Shown: one piece after another, positions 19,864-61,021 of the stretch
How positions within the stretch are numbered: the first letter of the stretch is position 1
Layout of the letters: every line of letters begins with the position of its first letter
DNA from: Microbacterium marinilacus
Lineage (GTDB): Bacteria; Actinomycetota; Actinomycetes; Actinomycetales; Microbacteriaceae
NCBI RefSeq assembly: GCF_019753765.1
Contig: NZ_JAIJZW010000010.1
Span: 1-64,000 of the forward strand
Direction: 5' to 3'
DNA length: 64,000 nt
Notes under the pieces: model-generated
Told to the model about the DNA's origin: nothing
Seen by the model: only the letters and a program-made list of their open reading frames with translations
Database searches by the model: none
Program-made: the position numbers and the translations under genes

Positions 19864-20906
19864 GGGGCCACTCCATTCACGCTGAGCGCGCGGCCCTCCG
19901 GGAGGCCGAGCGCGATGTTCATCGACTGGATCGCCGCTCCCGCGGTGCCCTTGGTCAGGTTGTCGACCGCGGTGACCACCACCACGCGGCCCGCGGCCCG
20001 ATCGATCGCGAGGCCCATGAGCGCCGTGTTCGCGCCGATCACGTCGGCGGTGCGCGGCACCTGACCCTCGGGCAGCAGCTGCACGAACGTCTCGTCGCCG
20101 TACGCCGCCTCCCACGCGTCGCGCACCTGCGCGTCCGTCGCGCCGTCCGCGATCCGGGCGGTGCTCGTGGCGAGGATGCCGCGCGCCATCGGCACGATCA
20201 CCGGCGTGAACGACAGGCGGACGTCGCCGGACGCGCCCGCGGCGCGCAGCGCCTGACGGATCTCCGGGATGTGCCGGTGAGTGCCGCCCACCGCATACGG
20301 GTTCGCCGATCCGAGGATCTCGCTGCCCAGCAGGTGGGTCTTCAGGCTCTTTCCCGCGCCCGACGGGCCGACGGCGAGAACGCTGACCAGGTCGGAGGGG
20401 TCGATCACCCCCGCCGCCACGCCCGGCGCCAGGCTCAGGCTCACGGTCGACGCGTTGCAGCCGGGGGCGGCGATGCGCGTGGCGCCGACCAGGTTCTCGC
20501 GCTGCTTTCCGGCGGCGGTGACGAGCTCCGGCACGCCGTACGCCCAGGGCTCGTGGAACGCGCCGCCGTAGAAGGCGTCCCAGTCCTCCCGGCCGGTGAG
20601 GCGATGGTCGGCGCCGCAGTCCACGACGAGCGAGACGTCCGTCAGCGCGTCCGTGTACTGCCCCGACTGGCCGTGCGGCAGCGCGAGGAACACGATGTCG
20701 TGGCCGGAGAGGATCTCGGGGGTCGTCTCCTGCAGGGTGAGGTGCGCGAGAGAGCGCAGGTGCGGCTGATGGGCGACCAGCGGCTGGCCCGCGTTCGAGT
20801 GCGCGGTGACGGTGCGGATCTCGATGTCGGGATGGTCGGCGAGCAGACGAAGGAGCTCGCCGCCCGCATAGCCAGAAGCGCCGGATACGGCGACCGAATA
20901 GGTCAT
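19860..20906 (-). CDS. argC: N-acetyl-gamma-glutamyl-phosphate reductase
   Basis: NADPH-dependent reduction of N-acetylglutamyl phosphate; first gene of the argCJBDF operon. The 348-residue product begins with the nucleotide-binding motif [19 protein letters not shown] and has the catalytic cysteine in [12 protein letters not shown] near residue 150, followed by GVPELV and [10 protein letters not shown] elements. AAGGTGG lies about 7 bases before the ATG. The operon promoter should lie in 20907-21161; no clear ARG box was recognised there. Confidence 0.97.
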
Positions 20907-21345
20907 GATTCCACCTTATTGTCCGTGGGGATGGGCCGGAGACGGCGACACCACGAGACCTTCGGGAGGCTGCTCGACCGGGTTCCGAGTGCAGGACTCA
21001 GGCGCGGGAGCTTCGCGGCGTCGCCGGGATTCGGCGGCCACGCGGACGTCGGCGCACGTCGACGCTCGGAGCGAGCATCGGGGAGGCGGACATGCGGCGA
21101 GCGTAGCAGAGTCCGCACGCCGCGACCTACCGCGGCCCCTCCGCCCCGCTCCACCCCCGCACGAGAATCCGTCCCTGCGCCGAGAATGCGTGTGGTCGCT
21201 GCATTCCCGGCGCGCGGAGGGATTGTCGGGGGTTGCGGACGCCGCGGGCGGCTCTGTCGCTCCCAGGGCGGCAGGATGCCGCGGTTGTGCCGTCCCGGGC
21301 TCCGGTGCGCGGAGGGACGAGGACGGGGCGCGCAGCCTGGGCGGC
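20907..21345. other. Divergent intergenic region with one 67-bp palindromic element
   Basis: Between argC (minus) and the AbiEi-like gene (plus) there are 439 bases without a credible gene. They hold palindromic element A1 at 21162-21228 and must contain the arg operon promoter. I saw no clear -35/-10 pair or ArgR-type palindrome. Confidence 0.6.
21162..21228 (+). repeat. 67-bp palindromic element, copy A1 (upstream of AbiEi-like gene)
   Basis: Architecture 7-8-13-11-13-8-7: outer arm CGAGAAT, spacer, inner arm GCGCCGAGAATGC (21177-21189), loop GTGTGGTCGCT, inner arm GCATTCCCGGCGC (21201-21213), spacer, outer arm ATTGTCG. It has one mismatch in each arm pair. It matches copy A2 at 22306-22372 at 59 of 67 positions without gaps, including an unbroken 30-base identity, in the same orientation. 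It ends 117 bases before the start codon of the gene. Confidence 0.85.
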
Positions 21346-22302
21346 ATGGACGCCACACGCGCACTGCAGCCCTCCCCCGTCCCCCTCCTGCGGCAGGCCG
21401 AGTCGATCGAGCGCCTCGACCTCGCCCACCGCCGTGGCGAGGTGCGACGCGTGGCCCACGGGGTCTACGCGCCGTCGGCCATGTGGGACGCGCTGGCGCC
21501 CTGGGATCGCTACCTCGCCCGGGTCCACGCCCACGCCCTGAAGCATCCGGACGCGGTGTTCTGCCTCGAGTCGGCGGCCGCGCTGCTCGGCATCCCCGTG
21601 ATCGGATCGCCGAGCGAGGTGCACGTGGTGAGCGCTCAGACCGCCGGGCGGCGGATCGGGGACGTCCGCTTCCACGTGACGAGCGACCGGCGGGAGGTCG
21701 TCAGCGCGTCCGGCCTCCTCCTGCTCTCCCCGGAGGACACGGCTGTCGACCTCGCTCGCGCGCGTCATCCCGCCGTCGGCCTGGCCGCCGTGGACGGCAC
21801 GTTGCGGATGCTCGGCCTCGACGATCCCGGAGTCCTGGTCGAGCTCAACGAGTCGCGCGCGAGCGGCCGAGGCCGCGCCGCCGCACGCTGGTCGCTCGGT
21901 CGCGCGACCGCCCTCGCCGAGACGGCCCTCGAGTCACTGAGTCGCGCCGTCATCGAGTGGCTCGGCTATCCGGACCCCGAGCTGCAGGTGACGTTCCCCT
22001 CGCGCCACGGACGCGAGCATCGAGCCGACCTCTACTGGCGCGCGCGCCGCATCATCGGCGAGACGGACGGGCGGATAAAGTACGACGGGACGTTCGGTCA
22101 CGACACCCGCCGCCTGTGGCGCGAGAAGCGCCGCGAGGACGAGCTGCGCCGGGCGTCGGACGGCTTCGCCCGCTGGGGGTGGCCGGAGGCGTCCGACCCG
22201 CCGGTCCTCGACGACCTGCTGCTGCAGGCGGGCCTGCGACACGTACGACCGCCCGTGTCCGCTCCGCTGCGCTCGCTGTCCGCGGCGCTGCGCGGCCGTT
22301 GA
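21346..22302 (+). CDS. Orphan AbiEi-type protein with a nuclease-like C-terminal domain
   Basis: A 318-residue protein of the type usually annotated as 'type IV toxin-antitoxin AbiEi family antitoxin'. The N-terminal winged-helix-like part (residues 15-45, LDLAHRRGEVRRVAHGVYAP) is followed by CLESAAALLGIPV and a central DLARARHP region. The C-terminal third resembles a Vsr/DUF559 restriction-endonuclease fold: HRADLYWRARRIIGETDG, then K-Y-D. Candidate acidic residues are the Asp of RADL and Glu/Asp of ETDG. No AbiEii-type toxin lies next to it. It is flanked by palindromic elements A1 and A2. The Shine-Dalgarno is weak; ATG 21346 fits the family N-terminus. Confidence 0.75.
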   Translation: MDATRALQPSPVPLLRQAESIERLDLAHRRGEVRRVAHGVYAPSAMWDALAPWDRYLARVHAHALKHPDAVFCLESAAALLGIPVIGSPSEVHVVSAQTAGRRIGDVRFHVTSDRREVVSASGLLLLSPEDTAVDLARARHPAVGLAAVDGTLRMLGLDDPGVLVELNESRASGRGRAAARWSLGRATALAETALESLSRAVIEWLGYPDPELQVTFPSRHGREHRADLYWRARRIIGETDGRIKYDGTFGHDTRRLWREKRREDELRRASDGFARWGWPEASDPPVLDDLLLQAGLRHVRPPVSAPLRSLSAALRGR

Positions 22303-22305
22303 CGC

Positions 22306-22372
22306 CGACAATACGACTCCGCGCCGAGAATGCGTGTGGTCGCTGCATTCTCGGCGCGAAGAGGGATTGTCG
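22306..22372 (+). repeat. 67-bp palindromic element, copy A2 (downstream of AbiEi-like gene)
   Basis: Same 7-8-13-11-13-8-7 architecture as A1, here with fully perfect arms: CGACAAT/ATTGTCG outside, and GCGCCGAGAATGC (22321-22333) / GCATTCTCGGCGC (22345-22357) inside around an 11-base loop. It begins 3 bases after the AbiEi-like stop codon and ends 3 bases before the end of pheT, so it could also act as a two-way terminator. Copy A1, in a divergent region, cannot have that role. Confidence 0.88.
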
Positions 22373-22375
22373 CGG

Positions 22376-24898
22376 TTACTCGCGGAGGGAGGCGCCGTGC
22401 CGCGAGGATGCGAGCGCGACGCCGGCCAGCTTGGCCTCGGTCGCCTCGGCCGCCGTCAGCGTGCGGTCGGGAGCGCGGAAGCGGAGTGCGAACGTCAGGC
22501 TCTTCGACCCCTCGGGGACGCCGCGGCCGCGGTAGTCGTCGACGAGGCGGACGGACTCCAGCAGCTCGCCGGCCCCCTCGACCAGGGCGCGGCGCAGCTC
22601 CGAGGCCGGGAGCGCGGCGTCGACCACGAGGGAGACGTCCTGCGTCGCCGCCGGGAACGTCGACAGCGAGGCGACCGTCACACGGTCGCCCGCCAGCGAC
22701 AGGACCACGTCGAGGTCGAGCTCGGCGACGGTCACGCGCCCGGGCAGGTCGGCGTCGTCCGCCACCGCCGGCAGCAGCTCGCCGACGTAGCCGACCACCG
22801 TGGACGTCCCGGATGCGCCGACGACCGAGAGCACGCCCGTGCGCCCCGGATGCAGCGCTGCGCGCTCGCCCTGTGCGACCTCGATCTCGACGCCCGCGGC
22901 CGCCGCGACGACGCGGACCGCGTCGAGGGCGACCTCGATGCCCGCCGGCTCTGCCTCTCGCCCCGGCTGCTTCGGTGCGACGGAGCCCGTGAGCAGCAGC
23001 GCCACGTGACGCGGCTGCGGCGCGATGGACGCGTCGAGCCGCGCGAGCGTCTCCGCATCGGGACGCACGGCGCCCGGCGGGATGGTCGCCGTGCCGTAGT
23101 CGACGCCCGGCAGGGGACGGAACACCGTTCCGACCTCGAACAGAGCGAGGTCGGTGGCGCCGCGCGCGACGTTCCGGTGCGCGGTCTGCAGCAGGCCGGG
23201 CACCAGCGAACGGCGAAGGAACGGCGCCTGCCCGTCGAGCGGGTTCGCCAGGCGGACGCTCGGCAGGTGCTCGCCGCTCGCCGAGCCGTGGAGGTCGTTC
23301 TGCTGCTCGGTCGTGAACGGGAACGAGGGGGTCTCCACGAAGCCGGCGGCCGCGAGGCCGTTCGCGACGCGGCGTCGGCCCTGCTGCGCGGGCGTCAGGC
23401 CTCGGCCGGACGGCGGGGTCGGCAGCACCGACGGGATGCGGTCCACCCCGTCGATGCGGGCGACCTCCTCGGCCAACGTCCACTTGTCGGTGAGGTCCGG
23501 GCGCCACGACGGCGGTGCGACCCGCCAGCCGTCGGCGGTCTCCTCTACGTCGCAGCCGATGGTCGTGAGCGTCTCGGCGATGCGCGCCGCCGTGTAGTCG
23601 ACGCCGATGAGCCCCTGCACGAAGCCCGCGGGCAGGGCGATAGAGCGACGCTCGAAGGTCGCGCCGAGGGCGCTGCCGAGGTCGTCCGCGACGCCGCCGG
23701 CGAGCTCGACCATCAGGTCGACCACGCGCTGCGCGGCCGCCGGCGGCAGCAGCGGGTCGACCCCGCGCTCGAAGCGACGCGACGCCTCGCTCGGCAGCTT
23801 GTGACGGCGGGCGGTGCGGGCGATCGAGACCGTGTCGAACACGGCCGCCTCGACCAGGACGTCCGTCGTCGTCTCGCCCATCTCGGTCTGCGCGCCGCCC
23901 ATCACGCCGGCCAGGCCGATGGGGCCGGACTCGTCCGTGATGAGCAGGTCCTCCGCGTTCAGCGTGCGGACCTGGCCGTCGAGGGTCTCGAGCTTCTCCC
24001 CCGCCGCCGCGCGGCGCACGGTGATGCCGCCGCGGAGCCTGCCCAGGTCGTAGCCGTGGATCGGCCCGCCGAGCTCGATCATCGCGTAGTTGGTGATGTC
24101 GACCAGCAGCGAGATCGAGCGGATGCCCGCCAGCGCCAGGCGCGCGATCATCCACGGCGGCGTAGGACGGGAGGCGTCCACCCCGCGCACGACGCGGGTG
24201 ACGAACTCGGCCACGCCGGCGCGACCGCGGATCGGCGACGCGTCGTCCACGACCACCGGGAAGCCGGACGCGGCGACCGGCGACACGGCCAGCGCCGGGT
24301 CACGGAAGGCGGCGCCGGTCGCGTGCGCGTACTCGCGGGCGAGCCCGCGGATCGACAGCGCGTAGCCGCGGTCCGGCGTCACGTTGACGTCGACCGCCAC
24401 GTCGTCGAGGCCGAGGAGGGCGATCGCGTCGGTGCCGGGCTCCGCCTCGATGCCGAGCTCGACGAGGCGGAGGATGCCGTTGTGCTCATCGCCGAGGCCC
24501 AGCTCACGCGCCGAGGCGATCATGCCGTCCGACACGTGTCCGTAGGTCTTGCGCGCCGAGATGGGGAACGGCCCGGGCAGAACGGCGCCCGGCAGGGAGA
24601 CGACGACCTCGTCGCCGGTCTCGAAGTTGCCCGCGCCGCACACGATGCCGCGGGGCTCGCCGTCCGGTCCGTTGTGGGGGCCGACGTCGACCTGGCACCA
24701 GCGGATGGTCTTGCCGTTCTTCTGCGGCTCGGCCTCGAACGACAGCACGCGGCCCACCACGACGGGGCCGCTCAACTCGAAGCCGACGACCTCCTCCTCC
24801 TCGAAACCGACCGAGACGAACGCCGCCAGGACGTCCTCGGGCGTCGCCGAGGCCGGCACGTCCACGTACTCACGCAGCCACGAAAGCGGGACGCGCAT
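22376..24898 (-). CDS. pheT: Phenylalanine-tRNA ligase beta subunit
   Basis: Beta subunit of the heterotetrameric synthetase; it structures the enzyme, edits Tyr-tRNA-Phe and binds tRNA. The 840-residue product shows the N-terminal MRVPLSWLREYVDVP, an EMAP/OB-like tRNA-binding region (about 40-150), B3/B4 editing region with VDVNVTPDRGYALS, B5 domain, and a C-terminal anticodon-binding ferredoxin-like domain ending near SLTFALRFRAPDRTLT. The ATG overlaps the pheS stop by one base (TGATG). A longer frame running upstream is an artefact of overlapping frames. Confidence 0.97.
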   Translation of the reverse strand: MRVPLSWLREYVDVPASATPEDVLAAFVSVGFEEEEVVGFELSGPVVVGRVLSFEAEPQKNGKTIRWCQVDVGPHNGPDGEPRGIVCGAGNFETGDEVVVSLPGAVLPGPFPISARKTYGHVSDGMIASARELGLGDEHNGILRLVELGIEAEPGTDAIALLGLDDVAVDVNVTPDRGYALSIRGLAREYAHATGAAFRDPALAVSPVAASGFPVVVDDASPIRGRAGVAEFVTRVVRGVDASRPTPPWMIARLALAGIRSISLLVDITNYAMIELGGPIHGYDLGRLRGGITVRRAAAGEKLETLDGQVRTLNAEDLLITDESGPIGLAGVMGGAQTEMGETTTDVLVEAAVFDTVSIARTARRHKLPSEASRRFERGVDPLLPPAAAQRVVDLMVELAGGVADDLGSALGATFERRSIALPAGFVQGLIGVDYTAARIAETLTTIGCDVEETADGWRVAPPSWRPDLTDKWTLAEEVARIDGVDRIPSVLPTPPSGRGLTPAQQGRRRVANGLAAAGFVETPSFPFTTEQQNDLHGSASGEHLPSVRLANPLDGQAPFLRRSLVPGLLQTAHRNVARGATDLALFEVGTVFRPLPGVDYGTATIPPGAVRPDAETLARLDASIAPQPRHVALLLTGSVAPKQPGREAEPAGIEVALDAVRVVAAAAGVEIEVAQGERAALHPGRTGVLSVVGASGTSTVVGYVGELLPAVADDADLPGRVTVAELDLDVVLSLAGDRVTVASLSTFPAATQDVSLVVDAALPASELRRALVEGAGELLESVRLVDDYRGRGVPEGSKSLTFALRFRAPDRTLTAAEATEAKLAGVALASSRHGASLRE

Positions 24899-59800: not shown

Positions 59801-59873
59801 CGACCAGCGAACACGCGCGCGTGGTCGTCGGACGGCGCGCTCGGTCGTCGGATCCGTGGTGCGGGCGTGACGG
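59801..59873. repeat. 73-bp direct repeat, copy B-left (downstream of AbiEi/DUF559 gene)
   Basis: Aligns without gaps to 60855-60927 at 58 of 73 positions in the same orientation. Shared features are CGAC-A at the left end, two GTCGTCGG words 20 bases apart (59824-59831 and 59844-59851), then GGATCC and TGGTGCGG. The left part can fold (CGACCA ... TGGTCG). It ends 16 bases from the stop codon of the minus-strand gene it flanks. Confidence 0.75.
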
Positions 59874-59942
59874 AGGTGCGGTGCAGCCGCTACAGCTGTC
59901 CCCTTCGTCCGGCGACAGGGCGCAGACTCCGACGACCGAGCG
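59838..59942. repeat. 15-bp perfect inverted repeat spanning the 3' end of the AbiEi/DUF559 gene
   Basis: CGCTCGGTCGTCGGA (59838-59852, inside B-left) is perfectly inverted at 59928-59942, inside the coding sequence (codons for LGRRSL). The arms are 75 bases apart. A similar pairing (12 of 15) exists between 60892-60906 in B-right and 60961-60975. Confidence 0.6.
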
Positions 59943-60762
59943 TCTCTCGGGCGCCGAGGATCGCCGCCTCGACCAAGTGCCACTCGTACATGACCTGCGC
60001 GTAGTCGAAGCGAAGCGGCAGGTAGCCGAGGGCGAGGGCCCGCGCGTCGCGCCCGAGGTCCTTGTGACGCGAGGAGCCGCCGTCGTGGTTCTCGCGGCCG
60101 TCGACCTCGAGGATGATCCGGCCGTCCAGGACGAAGTCGACCACGCCGACTCCGCGGATGGACACCTGGCTCTGCAGGACGATGCCGAGCTTGGCCAGTC
60201 GCAACCGCACGAGCGACTCGAGGCCGCTGTCGGCGTCGGGCCGTGCGAAGTCGACCAGGTACCGCATGCCGGCATCGAGGTTCTGTCGGATCCAGGTGCG
60301 AGCCGTTGCCGTCAGCTTGCCGAGCCGCCATGCCGACTCGTACGCGACGAAGAACGCCTCCGATCCTCGGCAGCGGGCGACCTGCACGAGGGCACGAGCG
60401 ACCGAGACCACACCGGGCCTCGCGCGCCCCGTCTCCCAGTGCGCCACGCAGCGGCAGCCCGGATGCGCGTGCGCGCGCCCTCCCCGGCCGAGCCAGACAT
60501 GGACCCCGGGGGCGTCGAGTACCCATATGCCGTGATGGCGCAGGGCGGAGACGCAGGCCAGCGCGCCCCCGTGCGTCGCGGCGGTGCGCACGTCGGCGCG
60601 GGCGGACGGCAGGGCGTACAGGCCCTCGCGCAGGCGCTCGATGTCGCGCTCGGCGCAGCAGCGGCGCAGGTCCGCCCGCGTCGCACCGGCTCGGATCAGC
60701 TCCGCTGCGCGCATGACGCCGCCTCGTCCGGCCATCCTGGCCGCGATCTCGTCGATGTACAT
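59890..60762 (-). CDS. Orphan AbiEi-type protein with DUF559 (Vsr-like nuclease) domain
   Basis: A 290-residue protein built like the one at 21346-22302. An N-terminal winged-helix antitoxin-like region (AAELIRAGATRADLRRCC, then IERLREGLYALP) is followed by CVSALRHHGIWVLD, and a C-terminal DUF559 domain carries the full motif VDFVLDGRIILEVDGRENHD, then GRDARALALGYLPLRFDYAQ. Asp, Glu-x-Asp and His are placed as in Vsr-like nucleases. No partner toxin gene adjoins. The ATG gives MYIDEIAARMAGRGG; the frame extends 36 codons upstream without family similarity. It sits between dapA and folA and is bracketed by repeats B-left and B-right. Confidence 0.8.
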   Translation of the reverse strand: MYIDEIAARMAGRGGVMRAAELIRAGATRADLRRCCAERDIERLREGLYALPSARADVRTAATHGGALACVSALRHHGIWVLDAPGVHVWLGRGGRAHAHPGCRCVAHWETGRARPGVVSVARALVQVARCRGSEAFFVAYESAWRLGKLTATARTWIRQNLDAGMRYLVDFARPDADSGLESLVRLRLAKLGIVLQSQVSIRGVGVVDFVLDGRIILEVDGRENHDGGSSRHKDLGRDARALALGYLPLRFDYAQVMYEWHLVEAAILGARETLGRRSLRPVAGRRGQL

Positions 60763-61021
60763 GCCCCGAGCGTCGCCGCGCCGATGCCGGGGCGACGGTC
60801 CGATCCCCTGAGATGTGGGCGCCCTGCGCACGTCCCCGCGTTGTGGACGAGGAACGACGAGCGGACTCATCCGCGCAGTCGTCGGCCCACGCGCTCAGTC
60901 GTCGGATCCCTGGTGCGGACGCGACGGGAGAGGGCGCCTCAGGCTCAGTCGCACCGCGCGACCGACGACCGGGCGGAGCGTCCGACGGGGGTGACGGGCG
61001 ACGGGCGCCCGGCGGCGCGGG
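60763..61021. other. Intergenic region upstream of the AbiEi/DUF559 gene
   Basis: 259 bases without a credible gene. It holds repeat B-right (60855-60927) and a partly inverted partner of its GTCGTCGG word at 60961-60975. Transcription from folA may end here; no separate terminator was seen. Confidence 0.5.
60855..60927. repeat. 73-bp direct repeat, copy B-right (upstream of AbiEi/DUF559 gene)
   Basis: Partner of 59801-59873 (58 of 73 identical, no gaps). Its left part folds well: CGACGA-GCGGA-CTCA-TCCGC-GCAG-TCGTCG. The two GTCGTCGG words keep their 20-base spacing. It begins 92 bases upstream of the start codon of the minus-strand gene. Confidence 0.75.

Follow-up and report, generated by a model that had tools for sequence, protein, structure and literature searches.

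A gene for a predicted AbiEi-nuclease protein between matched palindromes in Microbacterium

REP palindromes are common repeats of bacterial genomes, and the partner enzymes described for them (RAYTs) are of the HUH type. In the accessible parts of the corresponding reports, RAYT genes are flanked by two REPs, with many REP copies per genome (PMC2817692), REPINs are REP doublets able to form hairpins (PMC3116915), and a CGTC superfamily of REPs is reported without a dedicated transposase (PMC3733652). For the abiE operon, the available part of the source describes that AbiEi binds an inverted repeat of 11 bp, extending to 23-N3-23, in the abiE promoter (PMC3985639).

In the window, i.e. the whole 64-kb stretch of Microbacterium marinilacus DNA that was analysed, a gene for a predicted protein with an AbiEi-type and a nuclease-type fold stands between two nested palindromes, A1 and A2 (Table 1). 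Comparison with related loci supports the view that palindrome, gene and palindrome are one conserved genetic unit. By analogy, we propose, with slightly more confidence than doubt, that the protein binds and cleaves the palindrome of its own unit, which would thereby be spread or maintained, as in a RAYT-REP pair but with an unrelated enzyme.

The locus and its predicted protein

Re-reading of the sequence confirmed the two palindrome copies at the positions originally given, their identity of 59 of 67 bases and the 30-base stretch common to both (GCGCCGAGAATGCGTGTGGTCGCTGCATTC), as well as their spacing: A2 starts 3 bases past the stop of the gene, and A1 ends 117 bases ahead of its ATG. Since argC (starting at 20906) and pheT (ending at 22376) both lie on the minus strand and the gene on the plus strand, the A1 gap is divergent, as had been stated, and the A2 gap convergent. 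DNA-fold z-scores of A1 and A2 range from -4.5 to -7.6, and their 25-base core, with up to 3 mismatches, is matched twice in the window and never in 100 shuffles; the two palindromes are not a chance occurrence. The 7-8-13-11-13-8-7 plan drawn up for them proved to be idealised, as the outer 7 and the inner 13 bases of A1 each contain one mismatch, and the 8-base segments tend to pair across relatives, giving a 28-11-28 hairpin. An Rfam scan of 20900-22700 gave no match of note (best E 0.47, far under the gathering score).

Table 1. Features of the locus and palindrome-bracketed DUF559 genes of the same genome
Feature	Position	Strand	Remarks
Upstream 67-bp nested palindrome A1	21162..21228	+	argC/gene divergent gap
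Downstream 67-bp nested palindrome A2	22306..22372	+	gene/pheT convergent gap
Predicted AbiEi + nuclease-fold gene	21346..22302	+	ATG at 21346
A1 motif copies 1-4 (CGASAATNC type)	21162..21170, 21181-21189, 21201-21209, 21220-21228	+, +, -, -	sequence reading
A2 motif copies 1-4	22306..22314, 22325-22333, 22345-22353, 22364-22372	+, +, -, -	sequence reading
Codons of D228...E239-x-D241-G-x2-K245	22027..22080	+	reckoned from ATG at 21346; E192, E196 upstream
Window DUF559 gene (C2:59956)	about 59890-60894, region 59838-60975	-	matched inverted repeats at both ends
Bracketed DUF559 genes	C32:49401, C3:126305, C32:127472, C2:59956		by eye

An AlphaFold model of the protein computed with 55 natural sequences reached a pLDDT of 93.4 and a pTM of 0.90. 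With Z values that are all middling (below 8) and restricted to structures ranked by Foldseek, residues about 11-188 resemble AbiEi of Streptococcus agalactiae (6y8q, Z 7.5 over 164 residues, Foldseek E 3e-4), and residues about 191-299 resemble the Neisseria endonuclease-like protein 3hrl (Z 7.1), the homing endonuclease I-Bth0305I (3r3p, Z 6.8) and Vsr (1cw0, Z 6.5). AbiEi 6y8q was the top row in both structure comparisons, Rv2827c being weaker. All 90 homologues have E192, E196, Q214, R226, D228, E239, D241 and G242, and 89 of them have K245, a conservation that would be expected if the predicted nuclease had a functional PD-(D/E)XK-like centre.

Profile searches gave a match of the window protein to the PADLOC AbiEi model (2.8e-8), and with Pfam weak AbiEi matches for the window protein and 35 homologues; a Pfam nuclease family, DUF559 included, was matched neither by the window protein nor by any of these 35. 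An NCBIfam scan of the protein produced no match, and a PDB search by sequence nothing useful (one row, E 0.24). The designation as "AbiEi/nuclease-like" is thus supported in its first half, through fold and profile; its second half has the fold and the invariant residues on its side and the missing Pfam nuclease family against it.

The PADLOC match, together with the common occurrence of Vsr and DUF559 folds in phage proteins, would be compatible with a role in defence, the nuclease attacking foreign DNA or stalled forks while chromosomal palindromes mark or tether it. We consider this very improbable: by eye, no gene for an AbiEii nucleotidyltransferase toxin is adjacent, the neighbours (argC and pheT; in relatives GcvP, CPBP, Map, InfA and others) look like housekeeping genes, and a search of viral contigs with one peptide pattern found no such protein.

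Palindromes beside homologous genes

Homologues at E ≤1e-30 are present in 132 of 198 Microbacterium genomes. We read 90 loci, the 30 best and 60 of the matches that come after them, mostly in rank order, among at least about 150 listed, with a geometry rule that demands at least 17 of 22 pairs in a 67-bp frame and no motif. A palindrome was found upstream in 72, downstream in 68 and on at least one side in 80 of these loci. Both sides are occupied in 58 (60 by the rule minus the low-complexity cases L151 and L159), and in all 58 the two copies share at least 40 of 67 bases. The rule has a background of 5 in 398,374 sequence windows more than 800 bp away; motif and geometry together detect both palindromes in 55 of the 90 loci, with a background of 1 in 398,374. 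This conserved layout supports the core of the original prediction, namely that gene and repeats form one unit. The opposing case, related genes lacking any flanking palindrome, applies to the 10 of 90 homologues beside which no palindrome of the set geometry was detected.

In a second set of 80 loci, taken from named genomes and partly overlapping the first 90, 40 are flanked on both sides (43 by the rule minus three low-complexity hits) and 62 on either side, the background being 3 in 301,170 sequence windows. Humibacter albus and two Actinomycetes MAGs belong to the doubly flanked loci of this set, and the Frigoribacterium JB110 locus has a palindrome on neither side. Searching 299 Microbacteriaceae genomes from 85 genera by profile, we obtained matches at 1e-50 in 142 of the genomes and 53 of the genera. 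Matched hairpins on both sides (score ≥0.5) were seen in 16 of 29 loci of the family, 26 of them from other genera and with our own locus left out, versus 0 of 29 far flanks, a control that is often free of hairpins. A palindrome pair around a transporter-like gene (L025) was discarded as a second unit because no such nuclease gene lies inside.

Each palindrome contains four copies of a 9-bp motif, a pair in one direction with an offset of 19 bp followed by a reversed pair. In 60 units, the self-match of the 9-mer is 6.8 of 9 at offset 19 and at most 3.1 at the other offsets from 10 to 26, and the number of hits as a function of frame length has its maximum at 67 bp. Motif classes vary between units (CGAGAxxxC, GCATAAACGC, CGAACCCGA, CGATAAACGC and others). 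The 28-bp arms of 55 gene-flanking palindromes, which had been selected beforehand for pairing, show 322 two-sided changes versus 110 in shuffles, a covariation score of 0.512 versus 0.147 (reached by 0 of 500 shuffles; slid controls at most 0.120) and 86.8% paired arm cells. Six minus-strand loci stand in opposite orientation in the underlying alignment (A3), of which the pair counts are independent.

Some variants were noted in passing. By eye, extra half-units at a similar period are present in L056, L061 and L039, as if motif copies could be added. L046 (G029) and L048 (G149) contain a longer-looped class of 78 bp (CGAGACCCC type), for which no partner gene was found. In L074, L075, L081, L090 and L136 the stop codon TGA constitutes the first 3 bases of the downstream palindrome, and in other units this palindrome begins ahead of the gene stop.

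The two copies within a unit share on average 52 of 67 bases, those of different units 31.7, and a palindrome's own partner is its best match in 46 of 60 units. Palindrome similarity and protein similarity are correlated (Mantel rho 0.66, 0 of 999 permutations). Because such co-divergence could come from descent alone, we compared genomes with two units. In five genomes with one unit at gcvP and one near infA, the palindromes of the two share 31.2 of 67 bases (unrelated level 32.0); infA-locus units of different species share 40.8 of 67. Judged by this two-unit comparison, the palindrome class belongs with the gene lineage and not with the host.

Dispersed copies and site occupancy

The 25-base core, with up to 3 mismatches, occurs at 11 places in the M. 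marinilacus genome (reversed-pattern control 0). A covariance model made from these 11 copies retrieved 25 full-length 67-bp copies in this genome and matches in 68 of the 198 genomes of the genus; a broader model, based on the 55 gene-flanking palindromes, matched in 170 of 198. At least 10 scored copies were present in 112 of 132 genomes with the gene versus 17 of 66 without it (Fisher p 4e-16), where at most 26 candidates were scored per genome, the gene's own two palindromes are included, and the counts are non-independent since the genomes are related, species relatedness being uncorrected. The search of the core in this and other genomes that had been suggested thus finds the palindromes dispersed and commoner where the gene is present; the case raised against the unit, palindromes scattered with no link to such genes, is not what we observe, as they are scattered and linked.

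Fourteen of the 17 high-copy genomes without a close homologue have a divergent one by profile. According to the 30 loci read among 37 matches listed, a 67-bp palindrome, often of another motif class, adjoins a homologue in 8 of these 14; no palindrome link was found for the other 6, and 3 of the 17 are without any homologue.

For 60 dispersed copies from ten genomes (20 from M. marinilacus and 40 chosen among the best-scoring matches of the broader model), the unit of the same genome was the best match in 39 cases when 76 genomes were compared (chance 0.8) and among the best three in 48. The 20 M. marinilacus copies had been found by a model whose input included the copies of the unit itself, which favours them; without these 20, the own unit still ranks first for 24 of 40. 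Class mismatches are concentrated in few genomes, the own unit being first in 0 of 6 copies of G064, 0 of 6 of G079 and 1 of 4 of G121. G064 and G079 each have a second homologue, and the mismatch relates to the one unit compared.

With ORFs from a simple caller, 47 of 58 copies (58 of the 60 were used) are located outside ORFs, 28 between convergent, 18 between tandem and 1 between divergent genes, with a median distance of 31 bp after the facing stop codon. The remaining 11 overlap called ORFs, 6 of them belonging to the 20 M. marinilacus copies. A1 with its divergent gap is an exception among the copies, which the bracketing of the gene explains.

A preference for convergent gene ends is also what one would expect of mere strong bidirectional terminators that were amplified by chance, an account we find barely credible. 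It is at odds with the position of A1, it leaves bracketing and lineage-specific motifs unexplained, and the small number of G-U cells (51 versus 203 unpaired in a hand tally of the covariation cells of the 55 palindromes) suggests pairing as DNA rather than RNA. Autoregulation is less improbable: the protein could descend from an AbiEi repressor with A1 as its operator, other copies could be regulator or terminator sites, and the nuclease domain could serve otherwise. The AbiEi fold of the N-terminal part, the binding of AbiEi to an inverted repeat in the abiE promoter (in the accessible part of PMC3985639) and the location of A1-type copies, whose ends lie a median of 146 bp ahead of the aligned gene start in 60 units, would agree with this. 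We nevertheless regard it as unlikely, as the dispersed copies avoid promoters (1 of 47 divergent), a matched palindrome also stands after the gene, and the nuclease fold has kept its acidic residues without exception.

Judging neighbours by eye, we found the unit at several loci, namely gcvP/CPBP, infA/map, the nusG-rplA region, typA, pfkA/ptrB and pheT. At pfkA/ptrB, the orientation appears to differ between L144 and L147. Among genomes that lack a close homologue, we read 30 of the 40 gcvP sites: eight with CPBP adjacent have no such palindrome, two (L170 and L178) have a solo palindrome, one (L166) has a palindrome plus gene remains, and most others have a different gene after gcvP. The gcvP sites without the unit are too diverged for reading an insertion junction or target-site duplication.

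These sites bear on a homing scenario, in which the nuclease would cut single palindromes, repair from a donor would insert the gene with the palindromes as homology arms, and the palindromes themselves would have another origin. The likeness of the nuclease fold to I-Bth0305I, the presence of the gene at several different loci, as a rule between two palindromes, and the solo palindromes at gcvP in two genomes without a close homologue are in line with such a scenario. It leaves the dispersed copies and their tracking of the gene unexplained, however, and 8 of the 30 gcvP sites have CPBP adjacent and no such palindrome; we rate homing as distinctly unlikely.

Two close species (G140 and G050, 94% identical at one locus) allowed a site-by-site view. 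In a collinear stretch, 12 of 15 sites are occupied in both by coordinate, of which 3 were aligned, 1 was read as a unit and 8 are matched by coordinate only. The aligned sites have the same palindrome at two (66 and 63 of 67 bases). At another, positions 4328-4394 of L339 (G140) and 5685-5751 of L340 (G050) hold palindromes of different classes (38 of 67 identical) between near-identical flanks, with the outer GACCGCGAGAC edge kept; palindromes would thus be replaced in place at least sometimes, and this single site with differing classes in close species suggests palindrome turnover. Of the 3 sites that differ, one is taken by another unit and one by other hairpin DNA, and one shows an internal deletion. 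Neither these sites nor gcvP provided a clean pair of a filled and an empty site from which an insertion point could be defined.

Two of the differing spots were noted in more detail. In G050, 5354-6492 of L330 contains another gene, AbiEi/DUF559-like by eye, that is flanked by shorter palindromes of its own, where G140 (L329) has a solo 67-bp palindrome. At 8547-8720 of L332 (G050), hairpin DNA with CTTCGACGAGCTCAGG and CGCTGAGCCTGTGGAAGCG takes the place of a G140 palindrome and may, from its appearance, be another dispersed repeat.

Related genes and comparison with known systems

The M. marinilacus genome has seven DUF559 matches, six of them over the cut-off. By eye and with no control, four of the seven genes stand between matched palindromes of four other kinds (Table 1), and three have none. 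The repeats of the window DUF559 gene are of the CGCTCGGTCGTCGGA / TCCGACGACCGAGCG type with long loops, the downstream one overlapping the gene end. The gene at C3:126305 (L352) is bracketed by the GAGTGCCATATGGCACTC palindrome, which occurs at 38 genome sites with at most 1 mismatch (control none), often as doublets or triplets 31 bp apart; its protein is a remote relative of the window AbiEi-nuclease protein (hhalign probability 94%). For the bracketed protein at C32:49401 (L350), hhalign gave no profile relation to the window protein (0.9%). The AbiEi_4 model matched at 0.023 or better in three of six scanned DUF559 proteins (L350, L353 and L349). Pairing of gene and palindrome is therefore probably not confined to one case, several DUF559 genes being likewise arranged.

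As relatives repeat the layout with different palindromes, the unit looks like an unrelated counterpart of REP/RAYT pairs. For a route of binding, cutting and copying, we infer the following steps. Since AbiEi binds inverted repeats, as stated in the available part of PMC3985639, the AbiEi-like N-terminal module would be a natural reader of the palindrome, recognising the motif present in it four times. The Vsr-like nuclease might then cut the palindrome as a duplex, as a cruciform or as a hairpin of the lagging strand. Repair of the break, or copying, could place or replace palindromes in the intergenic gaps at gene ends, and the whole unit of palindrome, gene and palindrome may occasionally be moved.

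We see an even chance that proteins of the AbiEi-Vsr/DUF559 type represent a second, independently evolved class of palindrome-associated enzymes, with an own palindrome family per gene and several pairs per genome, which between them generate, exchange and maintain a large part of the extragenic palindromes in the Microbacteriaceae and perhaps in other actinobacteria. If so, a non-HUH, nuclease-type family would follow the same genomic logic, meaning that partnerships between genes and palindromes have arisen more than once in evolution. A likely role would also emerge for many lone "AbiEi antitoxin" and DUF559 genes, and the spread of extragenic palindromes would become testable beyond the groups in which RAYTs were studied.

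A RAYT as the hidden driver of the palindromes was dismissed, as its domain (PF01797) is absent from the M. marinilacus genome and present in only 1 of 198 genomes of the genus. By eye, neither a GTAG nor a CGTC tag was seen at the ends of the aligned or printed elements. A literature search through titles and beginnings of abstracts, including few subscription papers and preprints, returned no link of AbiEi or DUF559 to palindromic repeats and no description of this Microbacterium family.

With the AbiE type IV toxin-antitoxin system, the unit shares the AbiEi fold (6y8q, more weakly Rv2827c) and, following the accessible part of PMC3985639, a possible affinity for inverted repeats; it differs in the added nuclease fold and the dispersed palindromes. 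Vsr, I-Bth0305I and DUF559 proteins resemble it in the fold of the catalytic domain and the conserved acidic set, whereas the window gene lies outside an intron or phage gene and between its own palindromes, and its protein falls below what the Pfam DUF559 model detects. We conclude that the unit is real and conserved and that, as tested, it matches the full definition of no known family. Its closest likeness in layout is to REP/RAYT pairs (REPtrons), as far as the consulted parts of PMC2817692, PMC3116915 and PMC3733652 describe them: a lone enzyme gene between two palindromes, the occurrence of the same palindrome in many extragenic copies throughout the genome, and gene-specific palindrome classes with several systems possible per genome. 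Unlike REPs, the Microbacterium element has a fixed length of 67 bp and carries its motif four times, and unlike RAYTs, the protein combines AbiEi and Vsr-like folds and has no HUH Y1 domain. The original notion of a REP/RAYT-like layout with an unrelated protein is hence supported, by bracketing and dispersed copies on the one hand and by AbiEi/Vsr-like folds in place of HUH on the other.
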